A stretch of DNA of 41,624 bases, from the NCBI GenBank assembly GCA_017428265.1, contig JAFRRD010000008.1:1-41624 (forward strand), given 5' to 3'. The position numbers and the translations under genes were made by a program. The notes below the pieces were generated by a model. The model had not been told where the DNA came from and ran no database searches. It worked only from the letters and a program-made list of their open reading frames with translations. Source of the stretch: Lachnospiraceae bacterium. Its GTDB lineage: Bacteria; Bacillota; Clostridia; Lachnospirales; Lachnospiraceae. Shown piece by piece: positions 28,037 through 41,624 of the stretch (the first letter of the stretch is position 1; each line of letters opens with the position of its first letter).

Positions 28037-28525
28037 TTAGATCCTTCCGATTTCTGTATAGATCATGCCCTGTTTTCCGCGGTCGGAGCGCATGAGGCTG
28101 ATGTGGTCCACGGTCATGGAGATCGGCTGCACTTCAACTGGGAAGCCGTTTTCCGCGCGGCGCACCAGGGTGATGTGCGGTGAAAAGCGCTTGCGGTCGA
28201 AGGGGATGCCGCTGTCGGCAAGCGCCCGTCTGACCCGGCGCACGACCGCGTCGAGGGCAGGAGAGGGGGCAAGGCCGGCCCACCACAGGTCGCCGAAGGC
28301 GCCGCAGCGGTCAAGCGTGATCGTAAACGGCCGGATCTCAATGCCGGCGAGAACTTCCAGCACGTCCTCCGGATCCGGGTATTCGCCGATGAAGGCGAGC
28401 GTCAGATGGAGGTTCTCCTCCGGGCTGAAACTGCCGCGGACGCCGCCCTCGTACATGTCGTTCTGCGCGTCCACCAGGGCGGTGCGCATTTCATCGGATA
28501 AATTGATGGAAATAAAGAGTCTCAT
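28037..28525 (-). CDS. thpR: RNA 2',3'-cyclic phosphodiesterase (2H family)
   Basis: A 162-residue member of the 2H phosphoesterase superfamily (2'-5' RNA ligase-like, ThpR). Two HxTx motifs, HLTLAFIGE and HITLVRR, give the catalytic His pair; the start MRLFISINLSDEMRTAL is characteristic. It hydrolyses 2',3'-cyclic phosphate ends of RNA. ATG 28525 is chosen as the normal family start; the longer frame to 28666 runs into repeat sequence. First gene of a three-gene unit with the DUF6054-like and amidohydrolase genes. Confidence 0.88.
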   Translation of the reverse strand: MRLFISINLSDEMRTALVDAQNDMYEGGVRGSFSPEENLHLTLAFIGEYPDPEDVLEVLAGIEIRPFTITLDRCGAFGDLWWAGLAPSPALDAVVRRVRRALADSGIPFDRKRFSPHITLVRRAENGFPVEVQPISMTVDHISLMRSDRGKQGMIYTEIGRI

Positions 28526-28570
28526 AAAAGAAGTATAGCATAAATCAGGAGAAAGTGTGAGAACATATGA

Positions 28571-28800
28571 GAGATAGGGGGATCTCCGACTCGGAGGATG
28601 GTTTTGGAGCATAGGGGAATCTCCGACTCGGCACGCGCAGCGTGCCTCGCTGGATAGTTCGACCAACGAACCGCGCGGCGCTATGCTTGCGCGGTTCGGG
28701 TCTCACAGAGAACCCCACCGGGGTCCGCTCCCCGTGCGACAATAAAAACACAGGACGGCCGTCTGGCCGTCCTGTGTTTTTATGGAGCATAGGGGGATCG
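28571..28800. repeat. palindrome-rich repeat island with tRNA-3'-end-like fragments
   Basis: Three partial copies of one motif are present: ATAGGGGGATCTCCGACTCG at about 28574, GGAGCATAGGGGAATCTCC at about 28606 and GGAGCATAGGGGGATCGAA at about 28784. Read on the minus strand the last two end in TATGCTCCA, like a tRNA T-arm/acceptor 3' end. Between them are perfect hairpins: GGCACGC-GCA-GCGTGCC (28630-28646), GAACCGCGC/GCGCGGTTC (28668-28697) and the terminator listed separately. No convincing gene is present; the short open frames here look like by-products of the repeats. Confidence 0.55.
28742..28783. terminator. 19-bp perfect hairpin, bidirectional terminator-like
   Basis: ATAAAAACACAGGACGGCC (28742-28760), loop GTCT, and its exact complement (28765-28783). 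T/A-rich feet on both strands would stop transcription in both directions, insulating the core genome from the accessory block. Confidence 0.8.
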
Positions 28801-28962
28801 AAGCCGAACATTTGTTCGACTTTTCAAAGATCCACCAAGTCAAAATCGCCTGCAAGCAAGTGAAAATATCGAGAAATAATCGAAATAAATATAGAAAGGA
28901 GGATCCAGTCTCTTCCCATTTGCAGAACAGGTAACCACTAAAAGTAACTCATAAAATAATGG

Positions 28963-28990
28963 GAGGCTGCAGTCAAATGCAGCCTCTTTT
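28963..28990 (+). terminator. terminator-like hairpin before the sigma factor gene
   Basis: GAGGCTGCA (28963-28971), 6-base loop, TGCAGCCTC (28978-28986), then TTTT. An AGAAAGGAGGATCC ribosome-site-like stretch lies about 70 bases upstream with no start codon or reading frame after it. This may be the tail of a degraded gene or a small RNA. Confidence 0.65.
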
Positions 28991-29012
28991 GATCCCAATT
29001 GCTGAGTTATTC

Positions 29013-29126
29013 TTAATTCTTTTTCGCAATCGGTTTATTGGCGTTTCTTGCAAAAAAGAGTACAATGACAATGAATAATACTGAAATCTGTTTCCAATCG
29101 CATCGAAAAAATATCCTTTTCGTCAT
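29013..29126 (-). CDS. possible 37-aa membrane peptide
   Basis: A short frame starting MTKRIFFRCDWKQ, followed by the hydrophobic segment ISVLFIVIVLFF and a basic tail ARNANKPIAKKN. The composition is that of a single-pass membrane peptide or the end of a decayed membrane protein. There is no clear ribosome binding site and an in-frame stop lies four codons upstream, so it is weakly supported. It lies in the 5' region of the divergent sigma factor gene. Confidence 0.25.
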   Translation of the reverse strand: MTKRIFFRCDWKQISVLFIVIVLFFARNANKPIAKKN

Positions 29127-29170
29127 TTGGTTTGTTTATCATATAGAGAGATATCAGTTGAGAGGCAATT

Positions 29171-29728
29171 ATGAAAAGCCGGCTTTTTGTTCCGCTTGGT
29201 GAAGCGGAACAGATATTACTCGAGAATATGTACGAACAGTATCGGGGTACAATGTATGCTGCTGCATTTTCGTGCCTTCATCATGAGGCTGATGCAGAAG
29301 ATGTCGTTCAGGAGGTCTTCCTCAATCTTGCTGGAAAGCATATGGACACGGTTGTCCGCCTATCAGAGGAAGGAACCCTGCTTTACTACCTTCTGACTTC
29401 GGTCAGGAACACGGCACTGAACCATCTGAAAAAGGCAAGCGTCCGAAAAGAGTCCCCGGTGGACCCGAACGATCTGCCGGAAGAAGTGTTGTCCGACGAT
29501 TCCTTTGTGGATGCGCTGAATGATGCTTTGGATGTTGAAGCGCTGGTCCGGATCATCAACAGTATGAAGCCAAAATACCGGGACGTTCTAATCCAGCGTT
29601 ATGTTTTGGAACTGTCGGTCAAAGAGATTGCAGAAACGTCCCGCTCGCCGGTAATCACCGTTAAAAAGCGGCTGCAGAAGGCCAGACAGCTTTTATGGAA
29701 ACTGTGTAAGGAGGAAAGCCATGAATAA
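29171..29728 (+). CDS. ECF-type RNA polymerase sigma factor
   Basis: A 185-residue sigma-70 family factor of the extracytoplasmic-function type. Region 2 (about 18-95) has YRGTMYAAAFSCLHHEADAEDVVQEVFL and TSVRNTALNHLKKA. Region 4 (about 125-180) has KPKYRDVLIQRYVLELSVKEIAE, followed by a helix-turn-helix and KKRLQKARQLL. It directs RNA polymerase to a small regulon once released from an anti-sigma factor. The next gene overlaps by 8 bases and is the likely anti-sigma. Base composition falls from the core toward the AT-rich accessory block within this gene pair. Confidence 0.9.
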   Translation: MKSRLFVPLGEAEQILLENMYEQYRGTMYAAAFSCLHHEADAEDVVQEVFLNLAGKHMDTVVRLSEEGTLLYYLLTSVRNTALNHLKKASVRKESPVDPNDLPEEVLSDDSFVDALNDALDVEALVRIINSMKPKYRDVLIQRYVLELSVKEIAETSRSPVITVKKRLQKARQLLWKLCKEESHE

Positions 29729-30746
29729 GGATAAACTGCGAGAAGCGCTGATCATTTCCATCGAACAGGATGCCGCTGCGTTCAGCAGTTCCGAAGAGTC
29801 TTCACACCGCTTTTCTCCGCGGTTTGAGGCCCGGATGGATCGTATGATCAAAAAGCAAAAGAAGGGCAATGTAAAAACGTCATTATCGTCAAAAAGAACA
29901 TTTAAACTAATGCATACCATAAACAGAACTAAGAGCGAGAGGAAGGCGGAGATGAAAAAGAAGATATTGCTGATTGGCATGACCGCATTTGCCACTGTCC
30001 TGATAATTGGTATAGTGGCTATGAAAAGCGATCCAATGAAAAAGGTTATAAAAGAAGCAGAATTACAAATTGAAGAAGTCACAAAAGCAATAGGGCTTGA
30101 AAACGCTATAATCACGTATAAAGGTGTGGTCGACGATCACAGCTTTAATCAAGGCCGCGCTGAGTTTATTTCTGGAGAATACCATTTCTATTATGACTTG
30201 GGAAGAAAAGAACTAGCATATATTTATAATTCGTCGCCTCACGAGGCAGAGACAAATCTCATATCCAAGGAGGATATCCAGAAAAAGTCAGATGCTATAC
30301 TGGTCGCGGTAAAAGGTGAAAGAATATTACAAATGTGCCGGGAAAGGGAAAAAGAAGAGCCGAAAACAAATAGTGAGTATAAATGTTTTATAGATGGTAA
30401 TTCGGTTTCGGTTGCTGACATTGAAATAGACGATTATGGAGTTTTGATTTGTGCGGCATTTCAAAAAACGCAAGTGCCGCGTTTAGAAGAAGACATAATT
30501 ACACCCGAAAAAGCTCTTGAGGCTGCAAGAAAATCTGCGGAAGACTTTTTAAAGACGAAAAAACGTGAAGATATGAAATTAGAGGAGGATTCAGTTTCAG
30601 TTACAAAATCGTTGATCTCAGGGAAAAGTGTGTATTTATGTGAAATGACATATAGTTCAGAGATAAATGATATTCCCTGCTACTTTAATATTATTGTTGA
30701 TGCTGCCACAGGGAAAGTGCTTGAAAATGCAAACAGTTTTACATAA
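29721..30746 (+). CDS. putative anti-sigma factor with membrane helix and PepSY-like tail
   Basis: A 341-residue protein. The N-terminal 75 residues are charged and cytoplasmic, where an anti-sigma domain would be (no zinc-binding HxxxCxxC is seen). A membrane helix follows at about 79-100 (ILLIGMTAFATVLIIGIVAM), then an extracellular part of about 240 residues. Its end (TPEKALEAARKSAEDFL, then CYFNIIVDAATGKVLENAN) looks like a PepSY-type fold. The 8-base overlap with the sigma gene and this topology support sensing of an envelope signal. The family is not recognised with certainty. Confidence 0.7.
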   Translation: MNKDKLREALIISIEQDAAAFSSSEESSHRFSPRFEARMDRMIKKQKKGNVKTSLSSKRTFKLMHTINRTKSERKAEMKKKILLIGMTAFATVLIIGIVAMKSDPMKKVIKEAELQIEEVTKAIGLENAIITYKGVVDDHSFNQGRAEFISGEYHFYYDLGRKELAYIYNSSPHEAETNLISKEDIQKKSDAILVAVKGERILQMCREREKEEPKTNSEYKCFIDGNSVSVADIEIDDYGVLICAAFQKTQVPRLEEDIITPEKALEAARKSAEDFLKTKKREDMKLEEDSVSVTKSLISGKSVYLCEMTYSSEINDIPCYFNIIVDAATGKVLENANSFT

Positions 30747-30845
30747 ACAGAAGTGAACTTATACAAACAGAACAAGGGCGTTCGTTTAAGAAGGAGGACG
30801 CAGTTTTTGCTGAAGTCCCGGTGTAACTCCGGGAGACCTGCAAAG

Positions 30846-30870
30846 AAAGGATGCTTAGGCATCCTTTTTT
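30846..30870. terminator. terminator between the anti-sigma gene and a convergent gene
   Basis: AAAGGATGC (30846-30854), TTAG loop, GCATCCTTT (30859-30867), T6. A TCCCGG/CCGGGA hairpin lies just before it. No gene is visible in the 30,747-30,888 gap. Confidence 0.85.
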
Positions 30871-30888
30871 GTTGACTGAAGATTCCTT

Positions 30889-31638
30889 TTAGATGCCAGG
30901 TCTTCCTTCGTAAAAATTCATTTGCCTATATCCAAGGTCTTTGGGTATATATCTTTCGGCAAATTCAACTATGTTTTTAAACTCTTCATACCTCCATTTG
31001 TCTTCGTGAGGCCAGCATATGAGTTTTTCAATTAATTCGTCCTTTTGATAAAAGCGAATCTGCCAATGATAGCCATCAATCATTGCTCGGCCGTGATTGT
31101 CAGTATCATAGCAAAAGAGTTCTGTCATCATAGGATCGATAATGTATTTAGCATCGTCAGCGTGGATTAATAATACTGCTCCGTCCCTGCAATCAGTATT
31201 ATTCCTGTAACGTATCACTCCTGATTTCTCGATGCTGACCTCGTAGATGTAACCCAGGTAAGGGTTATTGAGAATCTCCACGCGATCGATCAAGTGAAAC
31301 AAAGAATGTCTCGCCATCCTTTGATCATAATTCGCCAGAATATGCTTCCTGAACTCATCTGGTAAGGGAATATTATAACGGTCCACATAATTATAATCAG
31401 CGTCATTCCAAACATATGTCCCGTCAGAGAAAACGTCGCCGCAACCGATTGTTTGAGATGGATCGATTTCATCTCTGATTATCCCTGGGCACGCAAGGAT
31501 ACAATGAGTTTTCAGATAACTCATTATTTTGTCTTTCATCGGATCTGGCGTCTTGGATATGAGATCCTTGAGATGGGGCAGCGACTTATCGCCATGCTCA
31601 TAAGAAATCTTAACGCCTATATAATCATCAAGTCTCAT
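30889..31638 (-). CDS. hypothetical protein, 249 aa
   Basis: An unrecognised soluble protein, rich in aromatic and acidic residues (DGTYVWNDADYNYVDRYNIPLPDEF, then KWRYEEFKNIVEFAERYIP). No membrane segment, signal or catalytic motif is evident. AGAGGA precedes ATG 31638; a longer frame beginning at 31692 overlaps the upstream stop as ATGA and cannot be excluded. Third and last of three small genes downstream of the FtsK-like operon on the same strand; low GC. Confidence 0.6.
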   Translation of the reverse strand: MRLDDYIGVKISYEHGDKSLPHLKDLISKTPDPMKDKIMSYLKTHCILACPGIIRDEIDPSQTIGCGDVFSDGTYVWNDADYNYVDRYNIPLPDEFRKHILANYDQRMARHSLFHLIDRVEILNNPYLGYIYEVSIEKSGVIRYRNNTDCRDGAVLLIHADDAKYIIDPMMTELFCYDTDNHGRAMIDGYHWQIRFYQKDELIEKLICWPHEDKWRYEEFKNIVEFAERYIPKDLGYRQMNFYEGRPGI

Positions 31639-31688
31639 ATGATTCCTCTGGTAAAAACAAATTAGATCGATGGTACCGAAAGCGACGG

Positions 31689-32114
31689 TCATTCTTCTTG
31701 TTGATCTGTTGGCATTTGCAACATACAGGGAATCTGTTCAGAAGGGGGCACCATTTTCATAATACAAGCAAAGCATTCCCTATATTCATTTGGATTAATC
31801 ATATAACGTTTCTCAATGGTGGTGTCATTATTGTCTGTCACCTGGAATCTGACAAACGGCATATCAACGTGAGCGCTTTCGGGTGTTTTCTCGAAAAACC
31901 TTTTCAGCGCTATAACAGCAAGCTTAAATTGCCTGGCGAATTCAGGCCTGTTTGTTCTGTATGCCCATGATTGGACGGGATTTGTGTCTGACGGCATATA
32001 GGGGCTGCACTCATACTCGATAGAATTCTCGGTGATTATAAGGCTGTCTCGAAATTCATATTCAGCCGGGACACGCCCCGACTCAGCTGTAATTTTGACT
32101 CTAATGATTTTCAT
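31689..32114 (-). CDS. hypothetical protein, 141 aa
   Basis: An unrecognised 141-residue protein beginning MKIIRVKITAESGRVPAEYEF and containing DSLIITENSIEYECSPYMP, then SWAYRTNRPEFARQFKLAVI. This alternation of strands and one amphipathic helix suggests a compact beta-rich domain. It ends in a polar MPTDQQEE tail. It may be translationally coupled to the next gene. Function unknown. Confidence 0.6.
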   Translation of the reverse strand: MKIIRVKITAESGRVPAEYEFRDSLIITENSIEYECSPYMPSDTNPVQSWAYRTNRPEFARQFKLAVIALKRFFEKTPESAHVDMPFVRFQVTDNNDTTIEKRYMINPNEYRECFACIMKMVPPSEQIPCMLQMPTDQQEE

Positions 32115-32175
32115 ATCTTGTGCTTCTTTTTGTATAAATGCCTCTATTATTCTCCTTATATGTTATCTTTACTAA

Positions 32176-32814
32176 TCATTCTTCCCGTGTTTCTGCTTTA
32201 TACATGCCAAGCTCTTTCATCTGCTCAATTAGTGTATATATATCCTTGCCTTCAAACTCATATTTTCGGCAAATCCCTGGGTTGTCATTAGAGAATAATT
32301 GCCATGCCGTAATCAGTTTTGATACACGCGGAATACCGAGCTTATCAAAAAGATCAGATAAACATTGTTCTGGTTGTCCATTGAGATATCCTGTAAGCAT
32401 ATTATACTGATACTTACCCAACTCAATGTGCGAATCCAATGAGCCAAATCCAAAATACACAAATCCGTCATTAATTAATATTTCACCAACTCCACTATCT
32501 AAAAACATCAGCATAGTCTCACGATCATATCCGTCCAAGTAATATACATCTCGGTGATACTTTTCAATGGTGTGGTTGCTCGTCGATAGAGGAGGATTTA
32601 GTTTTAATTCATCATCTTCACGGCAAGGCACTTCAATAAAAAGATACAATGGCTCGTCTTCTTTCATTTGGCCAAGAAAAGCCTCAAATACTCGCGGAAT
32701 GTTTTCTGCGCTGACGTTTGAATCCAATCTGCCGTCAGATACCTGATACGCCTCTCTAAGTTCGGAAAAATTTGATATAGAAGCACCTTCTATCAACTGA
32801 AATGTGTTATTCAT
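32176..32814 (-). CDS. hypothetical protein, 212 aa
   Basis: An unrecognised 212-residue soluble protein, acidic overall. It has EPLYLFIEVPCREDDELKLNPP early, then HRDVYYLDGYDRETMLMFLDSGVGEILINDGFVYFGFGSLDSH, and a helical end (DIYTLIEQMKELGMYKAE). The size and acidity are similar to polymorphic-toxin immunity proteins, but no specific match is recognised. It lies 38 bases downstream of the FtsK-like gene on the same strand. Confidence 0.6.
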   Translation of the reverse strand: MNNTFQLIEGASISNFSELREAYQVSDGRLDSNVSAENIPRVFEAFLGQMKEDEPLYLFIEVPCREDDELKLNPPLSTSNHTIEKYHRDVYYLDGYDRETMLMFLDSGVGEILINDGFVYFGFGSLDSHIELGKYQYNMLTGYLNGQPEQCLSDLFDKLGIPRVSKLITAWQLFSNDNPGICRKYEFEGKDIYTLIEQMKELGMYKAETREE

Positions 32815-32852
32815 AGTGTTTTCTCCGGCGCATTGTTAATCAATGTCAATGT

Positions 32853-34451
32853 TTATTTTGTTGATACTTCCATGTGTAGATCTTCGGCAATTTGTTGCAT
32901 AAATCTTTTTGTAATCTCGCTTGCAGATTTATCAAATTCCACTCGAAGATACTGAGATAAATCATCTTTTTGTACGATGAATAGATCTGGCGCATTATTC
33001 TTCATATTCACAGTAGGCTTCAGGTAAAACTGCAATAATCCTTTCGAGAATAATCGAGGGGCTTTATAAACCAGTTTTGTGATCCCGGGGCCATCAAAGG
33101 AAGCTGTAGTAATGGCCTTTCCATAAGCTGTTTGTGTAGGAAAACCGATTCTTATGCAATTCTCGCTGACTTCCATCGTGTATTCCCCTACGGAAAAGAG
33201 AGGAAAATCTCTAAGTGGGATAATCGGTTTACGCAACGGGGTGTTATTTGCGGTGTTCGTTTGAGTCGTCTTCTGAACAGGCATAATACTTTTTTCAATA
33301 CCGGAAGCTTTCCACTTTTCCATGGTCGTAAGGATTGCTCGTTCTTTACCGCCGTTATCTTGCCCAACAACGCCAAGTTTGGCAAGCTGGTCCATTAAAC
33401 GTGATGCTCGGCTAAAACCAAGTTTAAAAACTCTTTGGATGTTTCCGATAGAAGCTTTTCCTGAAGAAAGAATATATTCTGCCACTTCCGGAAGCAAGGA
33501 ATCATATTCTTCTATAACAGAGGCTTTCTCCTCATTTTCAGACGACTTGTTTCGATCAACACCCAGGAATGACTCTGCTAAAGAAGCCAAATAATTATAA
33601 TCGCAGCTGTGGCGAGGAGATATTTCTGAAATCATTGTTTGTATGTCAGTAAAAGAAGCATATGCACATTTACACTGAATAATCGCTGCCGGCTCCTTGA
33701 AATATATTTCTCCGGGGACCGGCAATCGCTCGGCGCCATATTGTTCCAAAATATACCGTGAATCTGTTTTTGAAGAAACACAAAAGGATATCCTATAGGG
33801 AAAACACGAAAGGAGCTCTTTCGTAATCATTTTTGAAGAAACAATGGAAGTCACGGCAATAATATGGATTCCAAGTGTTCTGCCGGTACTTAATAACTCC
33901 GTAAGAGTTCTCTTAAAATCAGGATTTGAGATTACCAGTGAAAGATCGTCAATTACGACAAATAATGCAGGCATCTTTTCCAAACCATTGTTATCGCACG
34001 ATCTGTTATAACTGGACTGGTCTCTGCACCTAAGATTTGCAAATATCCTGATCCGTCGTTTTTCTTCATTGCTGAGGAATAATGAAAAAGTATCCACAGT
34101 ATTATCCGTAGAGACCGGAATGCTGAGATATGGCAATGCGGAGAAAACGGAATAATCGACACCTTTTGTGTCCATGATCGCAAACTGGACTTCATTATCG
34201 GAATACCGACTAATGAGTGTAGCCAGTATCGTTTGCACAAAAGATGTTTTACCGGTTCCCGAAGCACCGCAGACCAAAAGATGGGGAATTGCATCAATAT
34301 CCCTAACTATGGCTTCTCCTTTTTCTGTTAAGCCGATTGGAACAAGAAGATTTCCTTGCGCAGCCAGATATTCCTTGCTGGTCAAAAGATTAGGCGCCGG
34401 TTCGCTGTTTCCTTTGACGGCTATATAAGCGCTATTGCTTTCCGTGTTCAC
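32853..34451 (-). CDS. soluble FtsK/SpoIIIE-like ATPase with winged helix and C-terminal PH-like domain
   Basis: A 532-residue protein. The motor domain has Walker A GASGTGKT (62-69) and Walker B FVVIDD (164-169), the FtsK/HerA layout. Residues about 315-375 (LPEVAEYILSSGKASIGNIQ, then SRASRLMDQLAKLGVVG) match the FtsK gamma winged helix that reads DNA orientation signals. Residues about 410-532 (SVGEYTMEVSENCIRIGFP, then LFSKGLLQFYLKP) resemble a PH-like/DUF4429 domain, by inference. There is no N-terminal membrane domain, unlike cellular FtsK. GTG start with GAGGTGA upstream, six bases after the AAA+ gene. A conjugation ATPase is less likely because of the gamma domain. Confidence 0.82.
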   Translation of the reverse strand: MNTESNSAYIAVKGNSEPAPNLLTSKEYLAAQGNLLVPIGLTEKGEAIVRDIDAIPHLLVCGASGTGKTSFVQTILATLISRYSDNEVQFAIMDTKGVDYSVFSALPYLSIPVSTDNTVDTFSLFLSNEEKRRIRIFANLRCRDQSSYNRSCDNNGLEKMPALFVVIDDLSLVISNPDFKRTLTELLSTGRTLGIHIIAVTSIVSSKMITKELLSCFPYRISFCVSSKTDSRYILEQYGAERLPVPGEIYFKEPAAIIQCKCAYASFTDIQTMISEISPRHSCDYNYLASLAESFLGVDRNKSSENEEKASVIEEYDSLLPEVAEYILSSGKASIGNIQRVFKLGFSRASRLMDQLAKLGVVGQDNGGKERAILTTMEKWKASGIEKSIMPVQKTTQTNTANNTPLRKPIIPLRDFPLFSVGEYTMEVSENCIRIGFPTQTAYGKAITTASFDGPGITKLVYKAPRLFSKGLLQFYLKPTVNMKNNAPDLFIVQKDDLSQYLRVEFDKSASEITKRFMQQIAEDLHMEVSTK

Positions 34452-34457
34452 TGATAA

Positions 34458-36731
34458 TCACCTCTTATTTGATGCGGCTTGGATATCTTGCCCCGTAATA
34501 ATACTGATTTCTTCAGGAGCAATATCATTGCTTCCCGCAATTCGCTTGGCTTGTTGCGTTATTACCTTTTCAAACAGATTTCTAACACCTCTGCCATTTC
34601 CAATTGAAGCGGATGTGTTTTTTATGAAATAATTTGTCAACTCTTGCTCAGCGTTCTCGGACAAAGAGTACTGGTTTGTAGAACAGAAGGATTTGAAAAT
34701 GGATATCATTTCATTCACAGAATAATCCGAGAAATGAATATATCTGTTAAATCGAGATTCTAAACCCGGGTTAGAATGAATAAAATGATCCATCAAATCT
34801 TCATAGCCAGCAATAATAACTACAAAATCGTTGCGGTTATCCTCCATGGCTTTTAACAGGGTATCAATAGCTTCCTGACCATAATCGTTCGGCCCTCCGC
34901 TTGCCAATGCATATGCTTCATCAACAAACAGCACACCGCCAAGCGCAGATGATATTACAGACTGTGTTTTGATGGCGGTTTGGCCTACATAACCAGCTAC
35001 GAGTCCGCTGCGGTCGGTTTCAACCAGAATGCCTTTTGACAAAAGCCCAAGGCATTTATATATTCTTGCAATTAAACGGGCAACCGTAGTCTTTCCCGTA
35101 CCGGGATTTCCCACGAATGATAAATGAAGAGACAAAGACGGATTCTTTAGTCCTTGTGCCTTCCTTAATTGTTGATGCTTCACCATCAAAATCAAGTCTG
35201 ATATTTCTTCTTTTACCGTTGAAAGACCAACCAGTGCATTCAAGTCTTCGAGTGCTTTTTCCAGAGAATCTTCTTTGTCGGAGATTTCGTCTTTCCACCA
35301 GATGACATCTTCATACTTGATTAGTGAAAGAACATCTGGTGTCTTGTCCTTTATCAAAGAAACGCGGCTGGCTTGCTTGGAAATGGTTTTTTCATAATAG
35401 TTTCGAACCGTACGCGCATTCGCAAAGGAACTGCGATCAGCTGATGCATTCTCAAAGTATTTTGCGATAGCAGGGATAGCCTCTTCATCGAGGACATATG
35501 CGCCTTTTTTGCAAAAGGACTTGAATATAGTCATCAGTTCATCAGTTGAATAATCATCAAAATGGATATAGCGATTAAATCGGGATTTTAATCCCGGATT
35601 GGAGTTGATAAACTGATCCATCAATGTTTCATATCCTGCAGCAATTACTGCAAAACGGTCCCGTTTATCCTCCATTTCTTTCAACAGGGTATCAATGGCT
35701 TCCTGACCATATCCTTGATTATTTCTGTCAAGCAATGTGTAGGCTTCATCAATAAAAAGTATTCCACCCTGCGCTTTTTCAATGACTTCCGCTGTTTTTA
35801 TGGCGGTTTGCCCAACATAGCCTGCAATAAGATCTTTTGCGGATACTTCAACGGTGTGGCCGATATTAACGACACCTATCTCTTTGTATATTTGTCCGAC
35901 CAGCCTGGCAACGGTCGTCTTTCCTGTTCCAGGATTTCCTGAAAACACAAGATGATAGGAAATATCAGAACAAGGCAAACCTTGCTGTTTCCTATACTGC
36001 TGGATCTGGGCAAAATCATATAATTCCTGTATTTCTTTTTTGGCTGTTTTTAATCCAACCAATTGGTTTAATTCGGCAAGAGCAGACTTTCTGTGTTCTT
36101 TCTTTTCAGGCGTTTTTACAGAAGCCTGAGAAATATGATCCTTGATATCAGGCGTATTATTGCCAGTGTTTGTGACAGAAACATTGAGTAATGATTGTGT
36201 TTTCTTTTTAGGAATAAAATCACGTAATGCAAACGGGGCATTATACGGTATCACATTAGCGGTATCACAAGCCTGAGCAAGGGAATTCCGGATTTCCTGA
36301 ATACTCTGGCTCTTTTTTTCATCAAGCGGTTCTGTGGTTGTTGCAAAGGCTAAAAAAACAAGAGTCAGGCATTCAAGCAATTTGCGGGAATAACTGCTTC
36401 GATTATGAACATCTTCTTTTATGAGATCAGTAAAAAAGCCTGGTATAGAAGGCACATAATCTCGTTTAGACAAAAGAGAAAAAGCGTGTGCTATTTGATC
36501 AGTTGAGTATTGGGTTTGAAGCTTTTCAGTACTGTAAATACAATTCAAATCGTTGGTGCATTCGGCTGCATCACGCCCTGCTTTATGCCATAAATATAAG
36601 GCGCATGTACGGCAATAAGTATCTATCTGATTAATTGTTGCCGGTGCTACAACGAAAGGAACGCTTTTCATAAAAGCACTCAGAATGCGCTTATAACATG
36701 AATGAAGGTTTTCTTTGTTATTCCAACTCAT
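34458..36731 (-). CDS. tandem CbxX/CfqX-type AAA+ ATPase
   Basis: A 757-residue protein with two AAA+ modules of the CbxX/CfqX (EccA/SpoVK-like) type. Module 1 has LNQLVGLKTAKKEIQEL, Walker A GNPGTGKT (265-272) and Walker B LFIDEAY (325-331). Module 2 has LNALVGLSTVKEEISDL, Walker A 541-548 and LFVDEAY (601-607). Each keeps AGYVGQTAIKT and SRFNRYIHF pore/arginine-finger segments, so both look active. Residues 1-200 are helical; about 115-160 (LVFLAFATTTEPLDEKKSQSI) is faintly TerB-like. Its ATG overlaps the DUF4236 gene stop, and the FtsK-like gene follows six bases later. Such ATPases remodel protein complexes. Confidence 0.88.
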   Translation of the reverse strand: MSWNNKENLHSCYKRILSAFMKSVPFVVAPATINQIDTYCRTCALYLWHKAGRDAAECTNDLNCIYSTEKLQTQYSTDQIAHAFSLLSKRDYVPSIPGFFTDLIKEDVHNRSSYSRKLLECLTLVFLAFATTTEPLDEKKSQSIQEIRNSLAQACDTANVIPYNAPFALRDFIPKKKTQSLLNVSVTNTGNNTPDIKDHISQASVKTPEKKEHRKSALAELNQLVGLKTAKKEIQELYDFAQIQQYRKQQGLPCSDISYHLVFSGNPGTGKTTVARLVGQIYKEIGVVNIGHTVEVSAKDLIAGYVGQTAIKTAEVIEKAQGGILFIDEAYTLLDRNNQGYGQEAIDTLLKEMEDKRDRFAVIAAGYETLMDQFINSNPGLKSRFNRYIHFDDYSTDELMTIFKSFCKKGAYVLDEEAIPAIAKYFENASADRSSFANARTVRNYYEKTISKQASRVSLIKDKTPDVLSLIKYEDVIWWKDEISDKEDSLEKALEDLNALVGLSTVKEEISDLILMVKHQQLRKAQGLKNPSLSLHLSFVGNPGTGKTTVARLIARIYKCLGLLSKGILVETDRSGLVAGYVGQTAIKTQSVISSALGGVLFVDEAYALASGGPNDYGQEAIDTLLKAMEDNRNDFVVIIAGYEDLMDHFIHSNPGLESRFNRYIHFSDYSVNEMISIFKSFCSTNQYSLSENAEQELTNYFIKNTSASIGNGRGVRNLFEKVITQQAKRIAGSNDIAPEEISIITGQDIQAASNKR

Positions 36732-37933
36732 TTCTGCTCACTTCTCTCTGTAAGATTGTCTAACATATCTGAAAGCAAGGAATCAGAACCATTAGCTGCC
36801 GAAGAGTCATATGCATTGGCTATAGGCGGAACCGTGTTGCTTTGGCTAAAGCAGGGAGGCTCTTCGAGGACATTACGTTTGTTATGAATGACATCCCGAT
36901 AAAACGCTTGATACTGTGTATAAGCAGTACCAACATTACGGGCAGAGGAAATATTCGAAGTAAGTATTTTTATATCGGCAGAAGTTGAAGAGAATGATAC
37001 TTTGCCGTATCGGCATACCGGTGTTTGCCGATTGTTATTGAATCTTTTATCTGCAGAACCATCAATGTTTGCATACTTCCAAGCATAACGAACCACTGTA
37101 GCATCCTTTGGTATTCTTTCGGACTCAACATAATCAAGAGTTGAAGATAGAATGAGGAGCTGATTATAGGACAGGACGTATTGTCTAAGCCCTTTCTGGA
37201 TAATAACGTTTGAAGGAAGGAACAGCATTGTACACCGCCTGCTCTTTATTACGGCTGTGCTAACGTCAGTTCTAATGAATAAAATGGCTTTATTTAATCT
37301 GACTTTGTTTATTCTTGCTTTGCTCCTCGAAATCGAATTTGTTGCACCTGAATGATATTTTGAATTTGCTTGTCTTTGCTCTGCTTCAACAATCCATATT
37401 TTTTTGCTTTCTTTTAGCTGATCAAATGCATTTAAAAATACAGTCCATCGCATATAAGCATTATCATCCAAGCCGTAGCGAATGGATGCAGCAAACAAAT
37501 AAGGGAATAGGCATACACCGATAAACATCAGCACAAAAGGAATGATGGGCGAAAAAAAGGCTGTGACAAAGGAAACGATCATCCATAAAGTGAATCGTAC
37601 CTTCGCGGCTTTTGTCTTTTGAATAATTATTTTGCTGTAATAATCGTCTTCGGAATAATTGCCCCCAATTCTGATGGCATCGTTGGGAGATAATGCCCCG
37701 TAGGAATCTGTATTGCGAGCCGGACCATAGTTGCGGGATACAACTGACGATTTCGCAGGAGAACTGATTTTCTTCCGGTAATATAGGCCATTTCTCCCCA
37801 TGTTAAGATAGGATCCCTTGGGGCCATTTGATACTCGGAATCCTTTAACTCCAGTTGATACTCCTATCCCGGATTTAGATAAATTGAACCGAACAGGACC
37901 AACGGTTTTGCTCTTTTTAATAAACCATCCCAT
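36728..37933 (-). CDS. DUF4236 membrane protein
   Basis: A 401-residue protein. The N-terminus (MGWFIKKSKTVGPVRFNLSK, then SGIGVSTGVKGFRVSNGPKG) is a clear DUF4236 domain, a small beta-rich module of unknown function. Two hydrophobic segments at about 108-150 follow. The C-terminal region has the IPKDATVVRYAWKYANIDGS and DKRFNNNRQTPVCRYGKVSF strings, then a disordered Ser-rich end. ATG 37933 follows GAGG by eight bases; an upstream GTG is rejected. First gene of the operon with the AAA+ and FtsK-like ATPases, whose coupling suggests they act together at the membrane. Confidence 0.8.
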   Translation of the reverse strand: MGWFIKKSKTVGPVRFNLSKSGIGVSTGVKGFRVSNGPKGSYLNMGRNGLYYRKKISSPAKSSVVSRNYGPARNTDSYGALSPNDAIRIGGNYSEDDYYSKIIIQKTKAAKVRFTLWMIVSFVTAFFSPIIPFVLMFIGVCLFPYLFAASIRYGLDDNAYMRWTVFLNAFDQLKESKKIWIVEAEQRQANSKYHSGATNSISRSKARINKVRLNKAILFIRTDVSTAVIKSRRCTMLFLPSNVIIQKGLRQYVLSYNQLLILSSTLDYVESERIPKDATVVRYAWKYANIDGSADKRFNNNRQTPVCRYGKVSFSSTSADIKILTSNISSARNVGTAYTQYQAFYRDVIHNKRNVLEEPPCFSQSNTVPPIANAYDSSAANGSDSLLSDMLDNLTERSEQK

Positions 37934-37961
37934 CCCAATCACCTCAACAGATCTTTTCTCT

Positions 37962-37990
37962 AGGATAACAAATCAGGATTGAAAACACAA
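37962..37990 (-). promoter_or_regulatory. promoter candidate of the DUF4236 operon
   Basis: On the minus strand TTGTGT (37985-37990), 17 bases, TATCCT (37962-37967), giving a leader of about 20-25 bases. Confidence 0.5.
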
Positions 37991-38049
37991 TAAAAAACAT
38001 AAAGGAAGAACCTTCACTGATGCAGGTCCTTTTTTGTCTGTTTTCGTGT

Positions 38050-38905
38050 TTCTAAATTTTTTCTTAAATCGCATCTAACTGGAATAATTTCGCCTTTCTC
38101 GTGCTCTTGCCTTTGAGGGGGTATTTTCGGCCGAAAGCGGATCCGCTGGCTAGGTAAGCAAAAAACAAGCCAAGAATCAAATATTTTTTCAAAACAGGCT
38201 TGTTTTTTTCACAATCTCACCGGTTAGCAAGTGGAGGGGGTTTTCAAGCGGATCAAGGAAGCTGCTAACAGAGGGCAAAGGTCAGCTGCTCATCTGAAAT
38301 CAGCTGAGGACCGTTGTGGAATATTTTTCAAAAAAGCACAAATACGCTAATAATTTGGCCTTTTTCGAAGGCTCCTTTATGGAGGGGTATATGCGAGGGC
38401 CTTTCATGAACCAATGAATAAGCGAGCTGCGCAGAAAACAAAAAACAGCGATTTATAACATCTAAAAAAGGCACAAGGTCGCCTTTCCTTTTGAGATCGT
38501 TTTAGCCCGTATGTGGATTATTTTCAAAAGCTTGCTCCAGACCATTAAATTTTTGCAGTTTTCACTGGCTATTTAGTGGAGGGATTTTTACGAAGTACAA
38601 AGTTTTTTCAAAAAATCTTCGCTGATATGCATATTTTTGCCTTTCTCGTGCTCCAGCACTTGAGGGGATAAATACAAAGCCGCCCCTCCGGCACCTTGAC
38701 AACCGAATAGCTGACTGCAGCCGAAGATACGACATTGCGATGAAGCATAGGCCGAGCGATGCGACGCCGGGGTGAAACTCCCGGGCAGGGAACGGAGCCG
38801 CAGACAGTGCAAAACAAAATACAACCGCAGAAACAAAATATTTTTCTCAAACAGGGTTGTATTTTTTGCTCTCTCACTGGCTACCAAGTGGAGGAGTTTT
38901 TATGA
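38050..38905. repeat. array of about seven degenerate hairpin repeats
   Basis: This 1-kb non-coding stretch holds direct repeats near 38092, 38208, 38355, 38479, 38552, 38636 and 38866. Most have an upstream box TATTTTTTCAAAA, 20-40 variable bases, then TTTTTGC, a short hairpin beginning CTC and ending GTGGAGGGG, and T-rich sequence. The clearest hairpin is CTCGTGCT-CC-AGCACTTGAG at 38645. Two copies have a covarying long stem: AAAAAACAAGCC with GGCTTGTTTTTT (38160-38171/38197-38208), and AAAATACAACC with GGTTGTATTTT (38816-38826/38855-38865). Spacing is irregular (about 70-230 bases). A GC-rich insert occupies 38670-38812. The last copy is followed by GGAGG and ATGAAGCAC, a 12-codon frame of doubtful meaning. 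Confidence 0.6.
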
Positions 38906-38974
38906 AGCACAAAAGAAGAAAACATCAGGCAATACAACACTAAAGAAAAAACAACAAAAAGGAGGAAAAGAATT

Positions 38975-40285
38975 ATGGAAAAACAACTTGAAACAACATG
39001 CGAAGATGTTTTGGCTGCAATGGAAAGAACGAAAAACGGAGCAGTCAGACAAACAATGGTCAACTGCGCGAAGGCGCTGATGCTGGACCCGGATATCGGC
39101 GGCAAGCTGCGCTGGAACGTGCTCACCGGGAGGATCGATCTGGTGGGTGAGGTGCCCTGGCACAGAGAGCCTGGCTCACCCTTTACGGATACCGACCTGC
39201 ACGAGATCGAAAGCCGCTTTGAGGCGAGGTATGAACTGAATCCCGGAAAAAAGATCCAGAACTCGATCGACGTGGTGGCAAACCAGCAGCGCTACCATCC
39301 GATCCTTGATCTGCTGCGCTCGCTCGTCTGGGACGGAAAGCCCCGCGTCCGAAACATGCTGCACCATTTCCTTGGAGCAGAGAACAGCGAGTACACGGAG
39401 GAAGTCACGCTGCTTCTTATGAGAGCAGCCATCCGAAGGCTGGAGGTTCCGGGCTGCAAGTTCGATCAGATGGTCTGCTTCATCGGCGATCAGGGGGCGG
39501 GCAAATCGACCTTTTTCCGCTTCCTGGCGCTGGAGGATGACTGGTTCTCCGACGACCTGAAGAAACTGGATGACACTAAGATCTATGAGAAACTCCAGGG
39601 GCACTGGATCATCGAGATGTCGGAAATGCTGACGCTTGCCAATGCCAGGAGCATTGAGGAAATCAAATCTTTCCTGAGCCGGCAGAAAGAAACACACCGG
39701 ATCGCCTATGACAAGTACCCGCAGGACCGCCGCCGGAAATGCGTCTTTGTCGGCACCACGAACAGTATGGAGTTCCTGCCTTTGGACCGCAGCGGGAACC
39801 GGCGTTTCATCCCGGTGGCGATCGATCCGGAAAAGGCAGAGGTACACATCCTGGACAACGAGGAGGAGTCGCGGGAGTACATCCGCCAGGCCTGGGCGGA
39901 AATGATGCAGATCTATGAGAAGGACAAGGAACGGCCGCTCTGCCTTCCGAAACCGATGGAAAAGCACCTGAAGGAGCTGCAGCAGCAGTTCATGCCGGAA
40001 GACAGCAAAGCAGGGATCATCCGCAACTGGATGGAAACATCGGCGCCGGACTACATCTGCGGACTGATGGTCTGGCGTGAAGCCCTGAATGAACTTGGCC
40101 AGCCAAAGTCCTACGAGCTGAAAGAGATCGGTGAGATAATCCGCCACACGCCCGGCTGGACGGCAATCAGTTCCCATCGCTTCGGCGGAGAGTACGGGAT
40201 CCAAAGAGCCTACAGAAACCCTGGCGGAGGCTTTCACGATATTCCGAAAGAACTTGAATCGGAGGTGCCATTCAATTTCAACTGA
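38975..40285 (+). CDS. VapE-family replication helicase, primase half absent
   Basis: A 436-residue protein of the virulence-associated E (VapE/D5-like) helicase family used by phages, satellites and integrative elements to start their own replication. Walker A is GDQGAGKST (171-179), with the WIIEMSEM segment as Walker B, then KSFLSRQKETHRIAYDKYPQDRRRKCVFVGTTNSMEFL and DRSGNRRFIPV, all family hallmarks. Related proteins usually carry an N-terminal primase of about 300-400 residues, missing here. AAGGAGG precedes ATG. The gene is GC-richer than the block to its left, hinting at a different origin. Confidence 0.88.
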   Translation: MEKQLETTCEDVLAAMERTKNGAVRQTMVNCAKALMLDPDIGGKLRWNVLTGRIDLVGEVPWHREPGSPFTDTDLHEIESRFEARYELNPGKKIQNSIDVVANQQRYHPILDLLRSLVWDGKPRVRNMLHHFLGAENSEYTEEVTLLLMRAAIRRLEVPGCKFDQMVCFIGDQGAGKSTFFRFLALEDDWFSDDLKKLDDTKIYEKLQGHWIIEMSEMLTLANARSIEEIKSFLSRQKETHRIAYDKYPQDRRRKCVFVGTTNSMEFLPLDRSGNRRFIPVAIDPEKAEVHILDNEEESREYIRQAWAEMMQIYEKDKERPLCLPKPMEKHLKELQQQFMPEDSKAGIIRNWMETSAPDYICGLMVWREALNELGQPKSYELKEIGEIIRHTPGWTAISSHRFGGEYGIQRAYRNPGGGFHDIPKELESEVPFNFN

Positions 40286-40289
40286 CACC

Positions 40290-40502
40290 GTTTACAGTTT
40301 ACTGCCCTATAAAAGCGCCAGGAAGGCGTGAGCACCGCACTCGCCGGCGGTGCTCATGTGTGTAAACAGCGCGCGCTTCCCATGCATGGAATCAATTAAG
40401 CAAGCAACGCCTCCGTCCGGCAAAAACAAGTTTTGCCGGCCAGAGACAGACGTCAGGGAAGCGCCCTGAAACCCTCGCGTTATAAACCGCGTAAACGTAA
40501 AC
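40290..40502. promoter_or_regulatory. GTTTAC/GTAAAC motif cluster and hairpins between vapE and integrase
   Basis: GTTTAC at 40290-40295 and 40297-40302, and GTAAAC at 40363-40368, 40491-40496 and 40497-40502. In between lie two perfect hairpins, GAGCACCGC/GCGGTGCTC (40331-40356) and CCGGCAAAA/TTTTGCCGG (near 40416-40438). No gene is visible in this 271-base gap. The arrangement of paired hexamers in opposite orientation next to an integrase gene is what arm-type integrase sites or an excisionase operator could look like. Confidence 0.4.
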
Positions 40503-40556
40503 AGACCGAACGGAAAAAGAATAGAGTAAATGACAGGAGAATAAAGAGAGAGGAAT

Positions 40557-41492
40557 ATGACTACAGATCAGAAGAAGGAGATAAGCCATGAAGGTGAATC
40601 TTATGATATAATGCAGGCGGAAGAGGCTGGCACCCGCTTGAGGCCAGCGGAAGAGATCATTCGTCAGTACTGGATGAAGTACAACGAGAAGGACAGGTAT
40701 TGGTACGCAAAGGTACCGAACCCAAAGAAAGGAGGCAGAAAAACAGCAATTAAACGGCGCAGCAAAGCAGACCTGGAAAAAGCCATTCTGGAAGCACACT
40801 ACCGGAGAACCGGAGAAGTTGCCGCAGGACCGACAATGTCTTTCAAGGAACTGTATCCGATCTGGAGGGCTTACAAAATCAGAGTGAAGGAGCATATGGA
40901 AGCCACAGCGATCCGCAATGACTGCTGCTACAGGAAATACCTGAAGAATGCGGACTGGATCGAACAGGACATCAGCACGATCAGGCCGAACGACATCCGC
41001 AAATGGATGAAGATCATCGTAGCGGACAGGGCGCCGACCAAGCACGATTTCACCAATCTGCACGGGATCGTCAACGGAGTGTTTCTGTATGCTCTGGACG
41101 AAGGGCTTGTGGACACGCCGATCGCCCCGTTCATTGCGGGAATAGGGCGCAACGGCAAACTGTTTACACCGATGAAGTCGCAGCTGCCCGAATATGACGG
41201 TACACAGGTTTACAGCAAGGAAGAAGCGGAGAAGGTCCTAGCTCAGCTGCAATGGGATCATCTGATCGATCTGGGAATCCGGCTGATCTTCTGGACCGGG
41301 ATGCGGATTGGAGAGCTGCTTGCACTCAGATGGGAGGACGTTTCCGAGGACTGTTCTGAGATCCTGGTTCGCCGAAGGGTGACCAGCAAGAAAGTCGGGA
41401 AACGCTATATCCATCCGGTGGTTGAAGGGACGAAAGGAAACGGGTTTTACCGGAGAGTACTGGTCCCGCCGGAAGTGATGCAGGGGTTATAG
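40557..41492 (+). pseudogene. tyrosine integrase, truncated at the C-terminus
   Basis: A 311-residue frame with the layout of an ICE/phage tyrosine recombinase. An N-terminal arm-binding region (about 35-85, YWMKYNEKDRYWYAKVPNPKK) is followed by a core-binding domain (about 94-190). The start of the catalytic domain has the first catalytic Arg (R250 in TGMRIGELLALRWEDV). It stops at PPEVMQGL, before the HxxR and Tyr boxes that complete the active site, so it should be inactive. Intact relatives are about 400 residues. The following 130 bases do not continue the family in any forward frame, so a deletion or insertion junction lies close to the stop. Confidence 0.82.
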
Positions 41493-41510
41493 GACAAAAA
41501 GCGTTGGTGG

Positions 41511-41624
41511 CTAACTCCACAAATCAGGATACTTAGAAGATCGATGCAGATCACTCCAGACGACGGCATCTCCCCAGTTGGGAATGAAATACTCGAGCTG
41601 GCCTCTGGCTGACATACGATTGTA
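41511..41624 (-). CDS. partial open frame running off the right edge
   Basis: On the minus strand an open frame enters from the edge and ends at a stop at 41511-41513. It reads YNRMSARGQLEYFIPNWGDA, then VVWSDLHRSSKYPDLWS (37 residues). It may be the C-terminus of a protein from whatever element truncated the integrase. No family is recognised and the evidence is weak. Confidence 0.3.
   Translation of the reverse strand, partial: YNRMSARGQLEYFIPNWGDAVVWSDLHRSSKYPDLWS

Follow-up and report, generated by a model that had tools for sequence, protein, structure and literature searches.

A DUF4236, tandem-module AAA+ and FtsK-like gene trio in a Lachnospiraceae genome: a possible variant of the defence-type FtsK theme

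Introduction

FtsK/HerA domains have been captured repeatedly by anti-invader systems, where, as suggested in the sections of the literature drawn upon here, they would seize invading DNA while it is being replicated, transferred or packaged (PMC10853773, PMC12839542). The present work concerns a trio of adjacent genes, encoding a DUF4236 protein, an AAA+ ATPase and an FtsK-like protein, on contig JAFRRD010000008.1 of a Lachnospiraceae bacterium (GenBank assembly GCA_017428265.1; 2.16 Mb in 52 contigs, with an estimated completeness of 95%). The stretch analysed, referred to below as the window, is the whole of this contig, with a length of 41,624 bp. Like the HerA/FtsK capture systems and the BREX-related captures, as these are set out in parts of the same sources, the trio is a small operon that unites an FtsK/HerA ATPase domain, of the kind present in cellular FtsK, with a winged helix and an AAA+ protein as partner (PMC10853773, PMC12839542). 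However, it differs from the HerA/FtsK capture systems in the SpoVK type of its AAA+ protein, where those systems have an Orc/Cdc6-type partner, in the possession of a DUF4236 membrane protein, and in the alteration of its motor residues. Both an Orc/Cdc6-type partner and a nuclease were looked for; because the window AAA+ protein proved to be of the SpoVK/EccA/CbbX type (NCBIfam) and no nuclease was found in its gene run, we do not file the trio as a HerA/FtsK capture system, but its mode of action may be like that of one.

Those members of the SpoVK clade whose functions are known are described, in part of PMC10659427, as dedicated chaperones for one target. Both modules of the window AAA+ protein belong to this SpoVK/CbbX/EccA clade by hidden Markov model searches, and they differ in forming a tandem pair and in being preceded by an orphan N-terminal region. 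To our knowledge, the partners present in the trio are unlike those described for the clade. Another relevant system is Shango (TerB protein SngA, a BrxC/D-type ATPase and a helicase), which restricts phages and, as reported in part of PMC10250203, lowered phage plating in P. aeruginosa. The DUF4236 domain is common to the window and to an Arthrobacter plasmid locus (L036), in which the long form of the domain stands at the N-terminus of one SngA-like reading frame. However, scans of eight to ten window genes revealed none of the Shango components, and the trio is not Shango.

The trio was singled out from the letters of the contig by a model (the original prediction), which proposed an undescribed system with a conceivable role in defence, DNA processing or element maintenance. 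No recognised paper describing this gene set was found by our searches of the open literature. The term DUF4236 was matched in one paper only when the full text of 5.39 million open papers was searched, and Pfam assigns the family no function. The evidence that bears on the nature of the trio, and on the wider family of long DUF4236 proteins, is presented below.

Results

The trio is arranged in the order DUF4236, AAA+ and FtsK-like on the minus strand (Table 1). Its coordinates, the 4-base overlap between the DUF4236 and AAA+ genes (36728-36731) and the 6-base gap between the AAA+ and FtsK-like genes (34452-34457), all as originally predicted, are confirmed by our analyses. A simple Kyte-Doolittle scan predicts one hydrophobic helix in the DUF4236 protein and none in the AAA+ or FtsK-like proteins, in agreement with the assignment of the first as a membrane protein and of the last as cytosolic. 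That a separate membrane protein here replaces the membrane part of FtsK is a guess.

In our survey of other genomes the DUF4236 protein was used as the query, so that AAA+ and FtsK partners were not selected for. Matches were present in 13 of the 391 genomes of the class and in 42 of the 398 genomes of the phylum (E 1e-15), the own genome being included in both counts; 38 of the 41 other phylum matches extend little beyond the N-terminal domain. A set of 12 long loci (L138-L146 and L238-L240) is made up of 9 class and 3 phylum hits, all non-self, in which most of the long protein is matched; 3 further class hits and 38 phylum hits, confined to little more than the N-terminal domain, are not counted in it. 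Two of the long loci look incomplete, L146 being split between frames and L240 being without the N-terminal part. The flanking regions of all 12 class hits outside the own genome were taken, with one genome occurring twice, as were those of 16 of the 41 such hits in the phylum, which were selected on score and frame length; three of these 16 phylum loci (L246, L248 and L253) had no DUF4236 open reading frame (ORF) called and were left out of the count.

A gene for a SpoVK-type AAA+ protein lies directly beside the DUF4236 gene, on the same strand, in three of the 12 long loci, namely L138 (genome G506), L140 (G416) and L142 (G730). A search of the 12 genomes with PF17866 identified six genes in six genomes, half of which adjoin DUF4236, and in G506, G416 and G730 the adjoining gene is the only one found in the genome. 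The stop-to-start distances within these pairs are 72, 17 and 31 bases, respectively. By a rough calculation, in which one gene per kb is assumed, the probability of three such adjacencies arising by chance is about 2e-8; since L140 and L142 are relatives (54% identity), it becomes about 1.6e-5 if two events are counted.

The locus in G506 is the most informative one: DUF4236, FtsK_gamma and a SpoVK-type AAA+ protein again occur in one run. It consists of a gene for an MTES_1575 nuclease-helicase, followed after 12 bases by a gene for a DUF4236-FtsK_gamma fusion (FtsK_gamma E 1.5e-27) and, after the 72 bases noted above, by the AAA+ gene (stop codons being counted as coding). Unlike in the window, the gamma domain is here fused to DUF4236, there is no FtsK motor, the AAA+ protein has a single module, and the nuclease-helicase gene comes first. 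In L140 and L142, the DUF4236 gene is likewise followed directly by a gene for an AAA+ protein of the same clade; these AAA+ proteins have three or four modules, the DUF4236 protein is of another subtype than that of the window, and, unlike in the window, no FtsK part is present.

Besides L138, the contexts of several other DUF4236 loci look defence-like. DUF4236 occurs, as a neighbour or in a fusion, with an MTES helicase whose gene is cut by the contig end (L145), on a Pseudomonas plasmid with DUF3320 and UvrD-type helicases (L032), on a Hymenobacter plasmid with a DUF4011 helicase (L033), and elsewhere with an HsdR-like protein (L240) and with a KAP ATPase whose gene is also cut by the contig end (L139). 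The Arthrobacter plasmid locus carries a DUF4236-TerB_N-TerB-TerB_C reading frame, which matches PADLOC SngA of Shango with E 4.6e-93 and has as neighbours BrxC/D and a DEAD/exonuclease protein.

The FtsK-like protein has Pfam matches to FtsK_SpoIIIE (E 1.6e-20) and FtsK_gamma (E 7.7e-20), which bears out the gamma-type winged helix proposed for it. It is 33% identical to the other FtsK of the host over the motor and gamma domains, but differs from chromosomal FtsK/SpoIIIE in having no membrane part, in an extra C-terminal region, and in residues that are otherwise conserved. When compared with 24 other FtsK segments, the protein retains Asp168 of Walker B and the glycines and lysine of Walker A; Glu169 of Walker B is changed to Asp and the conserved Gln202 to Ser, unlike in all 24, and there are many other changes too. 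We infer that Gln202 is the sensor-1 residue, the clade description given in part of PMC10853773 having been mapped onto the protein. The recognition helix of the gamma domain reads (I/V)G(F/Y)NRA(A/S)R in 30 of 30 other FtsK copies, including that of the host, and LGFSRASR in the window. The Asn of this helix, which we take to contact the guide sequence, is also absent from the L138 fusion, where Ala stands in the position of the Ser in the window. Such changes point to a DNA reader that has been re-tuned and to a motor that may be slow or inactive, and the protein may not be an ordinary translocase. Inactive FtsK domains have been predicted in another class of conflict systems (in part of PMC7159879), and phage small terminases with a gamma domain are reported, in part of PMC8190038, to retain its DNA-binding sites.

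The possible PH-like end of the FtsK-like protein is unproven: searches of its C-terminal region against Pfam and PDB sequences, and a profile comparison with DUF4236, gave no match, and the resemblance is by eye only. The protein has matches in 369 of the 392 genomes searched within its order; among the matches listed, the non-self ones are 29-36% identical, few extend beyond the motor and gamma domains, and most of the frames are of 700-1,200 residues, as would be expected of ordinary FtsK. Further matches occur in 487 plasmid and 229 phage records, with a best identity of 32% among the matches listed, and FtsK-like phage families are present in PHROGs. The matches to PADLOC SspH and Mad8 (~1e-23) are through the FtsK domain.

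The AAA+ protein matches Pfam AAA (E 1.4e-38) and AAA_lid_6 (E 1.9e-27), each in two stretches. Both modules retain GNPGTGKTT, (I/V)DEAY, AGYE and GLxSRFNR, with an arginine further on; the Walker A, Walker B, GY signature and arginine finger are located at residues 265-439 and 541-713, with a lid domain in each module, and the view that both are active thus stands as far as their motifs are concerned. In NCBIfam, the protein scores 577.4 bits against a SpoVK cut-off of 422.95, 473.7 against an EccA cut-off of 466.65, and just below the cut-off for CbbX; it exceeds both the SpoVK and EccA cut-offs because the scores of two modules add up. It does not qualify as an IetAS member (62 bits against the NCBIfam IteA cut-off of 510), and its match to PADLOC IetA (E 1e-24) probably reflects general AAA+ similarity. 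A TerB-like identity for the AAA+ N-terminus was considered and rejected, being hinted at in L138 only (Pfam E 0.037), with no alignment to the window N-terminus possible.

In a tree of AAA+ modules, from which 15 of 81 modules, mostly from Actinomycetota, had been removed beforehand, the DUF4236-linked modules are clustered more than expected by chance, requiring 5 changes versus 9.5 in shuffles, and none of 500 shuffles reached 5. The well supported branches of this tree are compatible with a single origin of the DUF4236-linked modules; repeated pairing of DUF4236 and AAA+ is possible. A separate group of clostridial SpoVK-type AAA+ genes (L052, L053, L056 and L060), with products of ~690 aa, was also noted, each following a gene of 187-188 aa and three of them being followed by proteins that by eye are zinc-ribbon-like.

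The first in-frame start of the DUF4236 gene is GTG 37942, which gives a 404-aa reading (36728-37942). However, since Met4 of this reading (37933) is invariant in the full-length family alignment A1 of 15 sequences, 37933 is the likely start. DUF4236, the trio gene that was searched for within the genus, is absent from all 14 other genomes and present only in the own one (1/15). A search of its profile against PDB sequences gave chance-level matches only, the best being to antibody chains (E 0.029).

Some further features of DUF4236 loci are recorded here. Long proteins of ~400 aa are frequent in viral contigs as apparent single cargo (L167-L200 and others), and PHROG 17982, a family without known function, matches them. 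In L254, L255 and L256, on Rhizobium plasmids, DUF4236 genes are located near His-Xaa-Ser (hxs) maturase genes, and in L255 TIR, caspase-like and E2-like genes are also nearby. An ion-channel gene lies directly before a DUF4236-type gene in two distant settings, viz. L142 (6628-8902), where it overlaps the DUF4236 gene by 17 bases including the stop codon, and L258 (5584-8560), where it precedes by 109 bases a DUF3320-annotated protein with a DUF4236-long domain.

The remaining features of the window are summarized in Table 1. The GC content, in 1-kb windows, is 54-63% over positions 1-29,000, drops to 45% at 29,001-30,000 and is 37-42% over 30,001-39,000; the trio itself has 39-42%, in accordance with its earlier description as AT-rich. 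As was also predicted, mobile DNA lies at one flank, where VapE-like and integrase-like genes are present upstream of the trio on the plus strand, and three orphan genes, orfA-C, come next on the trio's own strand. The six minus-strand genes in line (DUF4236, AAA+, FtsK-like, orfA, orfB and orfC) have spacings of -4, 6, 38, 61 and -4 bases, and because orfA-C lie on the strand of the trio at such spacings, all six may form one operon. By eye, orfA-C (30889-32814) resemble immunity-type proteins of toxin loci, an impression to which no family match corresponds; a plasmid search with orfC gave no match.

At the downstream edge of the AT-rich block (29171-30746), a gene for an extracytoplasmic function (ECF) sigma factor is followed by a gene with a weak, below cut-off PepSY match (E 0.0013) and, by eye, one membrane stretch; the two are possibly a sigma/anti-sigma pair. 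The AT-rich non-coding interval between the trio and the VapE-like gene (38050-38910) contains diverged direct repeats, examples being 66 nt at 38179/38836 (79% identical) and 53 nt at 38549/38861 (75%). An Rfam scan of 28500-41624 gave no match. Promoter-like sites number 21 versus 21.3 expected, and terminator-like sites 12 versus 6.6 expected. A conjugative coupling role was considered and rejected: the ten genes scanned around the trio include none for a relaxase or for type IV secretion.

Table 1. Positions of the trio, its domains and neighbouring genes in the window
Feature	Positions	Strand	Characteristics
DUF4236 long protein	36728..37933	-	401 aa; Pfam PF14020 E 5.7e-14
Predicted transmembrane helix of DUF4236	37490..37546	-	Residues 133-151 of the 404-aa reading; Kyte-Doolittle
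AAA+ protein	34458..36731	-	757 aa; two SpoVK/CbbX/EccA-clade modules (Pfam, NCBIfam, motifs)
AAA+ N-terminal 210 aa, orphan	36102..36731	-	No Pfam match over cut-off
AAA+ module 1	35304..36098	-	Residues 212-476
AAA+ module 2	34476..35276	-	Residues 486-752
FtsK-like protein	32853..34451	-	532 aa; GTG start; no hydrophobic helix; Pfam and PDB FtsK matches
FtsK_gamma winged helix	33327..33512	-	Recognition-helix Asn position is Ser347
FtsK-like C-terminal region, orphan	32856..33314	-	Residues 380-532; PH-like by eye only
orfA	32176..32814	-	212 aa; no family match; one plasmid relative (Anaerotruncus colihominis, 29%)
orfB	31689..32114	-	141 aa; no Pfam family match
orfC	30889..31692	-	267 aa; no family match; 4-base overlap with orfB
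VapE-like gene of neighbouring mobile element	38975..40285	+	Pfam PF05272 E 1.9e-66
Tyrosine-integrase-like gene near contig end	40557..41492	+	PF00589 E 5.5e-5, below cut-off; partial catalytic domain

Discussion

Our preferred reading, which we put forward tentatively and without presuming it to be the correct one, is that the three proteins make up a single ATPase complex belonging to an anti-mobile-element module of defence type, located on accessory DNA, and that this complex would engage DNA and work like the HerA/FtsK capture systems. The DUF4236 protein would serve as a membrane-tethered adaptor or sensor, and the two-module SpoVK-clade AAA+ protein as a chaperone dedicated to remodelling or switching its partner. 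Duplex DNA, perhaps that of an invader, would be gripped or moved by the FtsK-like protein with its altered gamma domain, and the AAA+ protein would switch the complex, by resetting or activating it, between resting and acting states. The formation of a three-protein complex and its tethering to the membrane in vivo are inferred, as are its DNA target, a role in defence and this order of events. In favour of the reading are the coupling of the genes, the intact motifs of both AAA+ modules, the recurrent adjacency of DUF4236 and SpoVK-type genes, the L138 fusion, the other defence-type contexts of DUF4236, the PADLOC matches of the FtsK domain, the published captures of such domains, the chaperone role of SpoVK-clade proteins, and the AT-richness of the trio together with the restriction of DUF4236 to one genome of the genus. 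The trio is best described as a variation on the defence-type FtsK theme in which the partners form an unusual pair, and as such is unproven.

Several observations weigh against this reading. The recurrence asked for by the original prediction was obtained in part: two of the three parts adjoin in 3 of 12 genome loci, and all three ideas come together once, in the DUF4236-FtsK_gamma fusion and SpoVK AAA+ genes of L138, whereas the exact trio was not found elsewhere in the searches made, three single-protein scans of viral sequences revealed no relative, and neither the 14 plasmid nor the 56 viral DUF4236 loci contain a gene matching the window AAA+ or FtsK-like protein. (The plasmid flanks come from lists of 36 and 92 matched records, the second including gamma-only matches, and the viral set comprises loci with a called DUF4236 ORF, which L193 did not have.) Since DUF4236 in plasmids and viral contigs seems to be mostly single cargo, our confidence in the readings was left unchanged by these negatives. 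Neither partner was found by tblastn at any of 79 loci matched by the AAA+ protein, some of which are short, and double SpoVK-type proteins therefore occur in other settings too. The DUF4236-linked AAA+ modules formed one clade in 0 of 200 bootstrap trees. The two orphan regions have one non-self match each at E 8e-4, the AAA+ N-terminal 210 aa among 398 phylum genomes (397 non-self) and the FtsK-like C-terminus among 391 class genomes (390 non-self).

The gene contexts also furnish points against it. No nuclease or other effector was found among the six co-directional genes (Pfam, NCBIfam), and none of the eight window genes to which the PADLOC scan was limited belongs to a known defence system. 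No defence-type neighbour was seen at 6 of the 12 long loci (L141, L143, L144, L146, L238 and L239; the Pfam classification covered part of the neighbours), and PADLOC gave no match for three DUF4236 proteins that lack TerB. In the Arthrobacter and Pseudomonas loci, the annotated DUF4236 gene starts downstream of the N-terminus that we read from upstream in-frame starts; in the former, the deposited gene begins 103 codons after the GTG used, so that it excludes the short DUF4236 domain and includes most of the long one. Lastly, the pairs in L140 and L142 are followed by two small genes, which in L140 encode a multi-helix and a single-helix membrane protein, an ion channel gene precedes the pair in L142, and no DNA enzymes are present beside either pair.

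These last contexts would fit a membrane-stress or envelope-regulation complex without a role in defence. In it, DUF4236 would organise a membrane assembly served by the AAA+ protein as dedicated chaperone, and the FtsK-like protein would act locally as a DNA-binding or scaffold subunit that possibly does not translocate. Such a complex would accommodate the altered motor residues, and known members of the clade act on envelope or secretion targets, according to part of PMC10659427. However, in G506 the pair is coupled to FtsK_gamma and a nuclease-helicase, DUF4236 is fused to a Shango component in Arthrobacter, and the distribution of the family is sparse, and we regard this explanation as unlikely. 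Slightly less probable is that the trio serves the adjacent integrase/VapE element as a module for its maintenance or transfer, with the FtsK-like protein moving or partitioning the DNA of that element. The VapE-like and integrase-like genes are directly upstream, the protein combines an FtsK-type motor with a gamma domain, and its plasmid and phage matches and the PHROGs families are in keeping with such a role; on the other side stand the lack of any gene for a relaxase or for type IV secretion in the scanned set of ten around the trio, the replacement of the Walker B Glu and the conserved Gln, and the finding that the other DUF4236 and SpoVK loci have no mobile-element gene among their scanned neighbours. 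Moreover, since the VapE and integrase stretch is richer in GC (51-57%) than the trio (39-42%), the two may not share an origin.

The uniqueness of the exact trio in the searches made, the plasmid and viral loci without partners, and the shuffling of genes by islands are what would be seen if three unrelated accessory genes had come to lie together in an island with no joint function. We consider this improbable in view of the overlap and the short gap that join the genes, the recurrent adjacency of DUF4236 and SpoVK, and the DUF4236-gamma fusion. A reduced relative of type VII secretion, in which an EccA-like AAA+ protein and an EccC-like FtsK ATPase would export proteins, is suggested by the AAA+ score above the EccA cut-off, but SpoVK is the clearer match and both sums add two modules. 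The likeness to type VII secretion noted in the original prediction was rejected: the own genome, estimated to be 95% complete, contains no WXG100 match, a control search being positive in B. subtilis; the FtsK-like protein scores 87.9 bits versus the EccCa cut-off of 509 and 82.2 versus that of 778 for EssC, it carries a gamma domain, and no match to EccB, EccD or EccE was found in the genes scanned. We give this explanation hardly any weight.

Extending the preferred, defence-type reading from the window to the family, the long DUF4236 proteins could be membrane adaptors of unnamed anti-mobile-element complexes, with SpoVK as a recurrent partner and a DNA-handling part that is swapped between lineages, a suggestion that we view as possible and somewhat doubtful. 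The swapped parts would be the captured FtsK motor with its re-tuned gamma domain in the window, the gamma fusion with MTES in G506, and the Shango parts in Arthrobacter. If this is true, DUF4236 would represent a marker for a defence-type module, and the chaperones of the SpoVK clade would gain a role in bacterial immunity. The window and G506 provide two natural gamma domains, from the same kind of operon, that are without a residue constant in ordinary FtsK, and it is therefore directly testable whether captured FtsK parts read invader DNA as opposed to the polarity signals of the chromosome.

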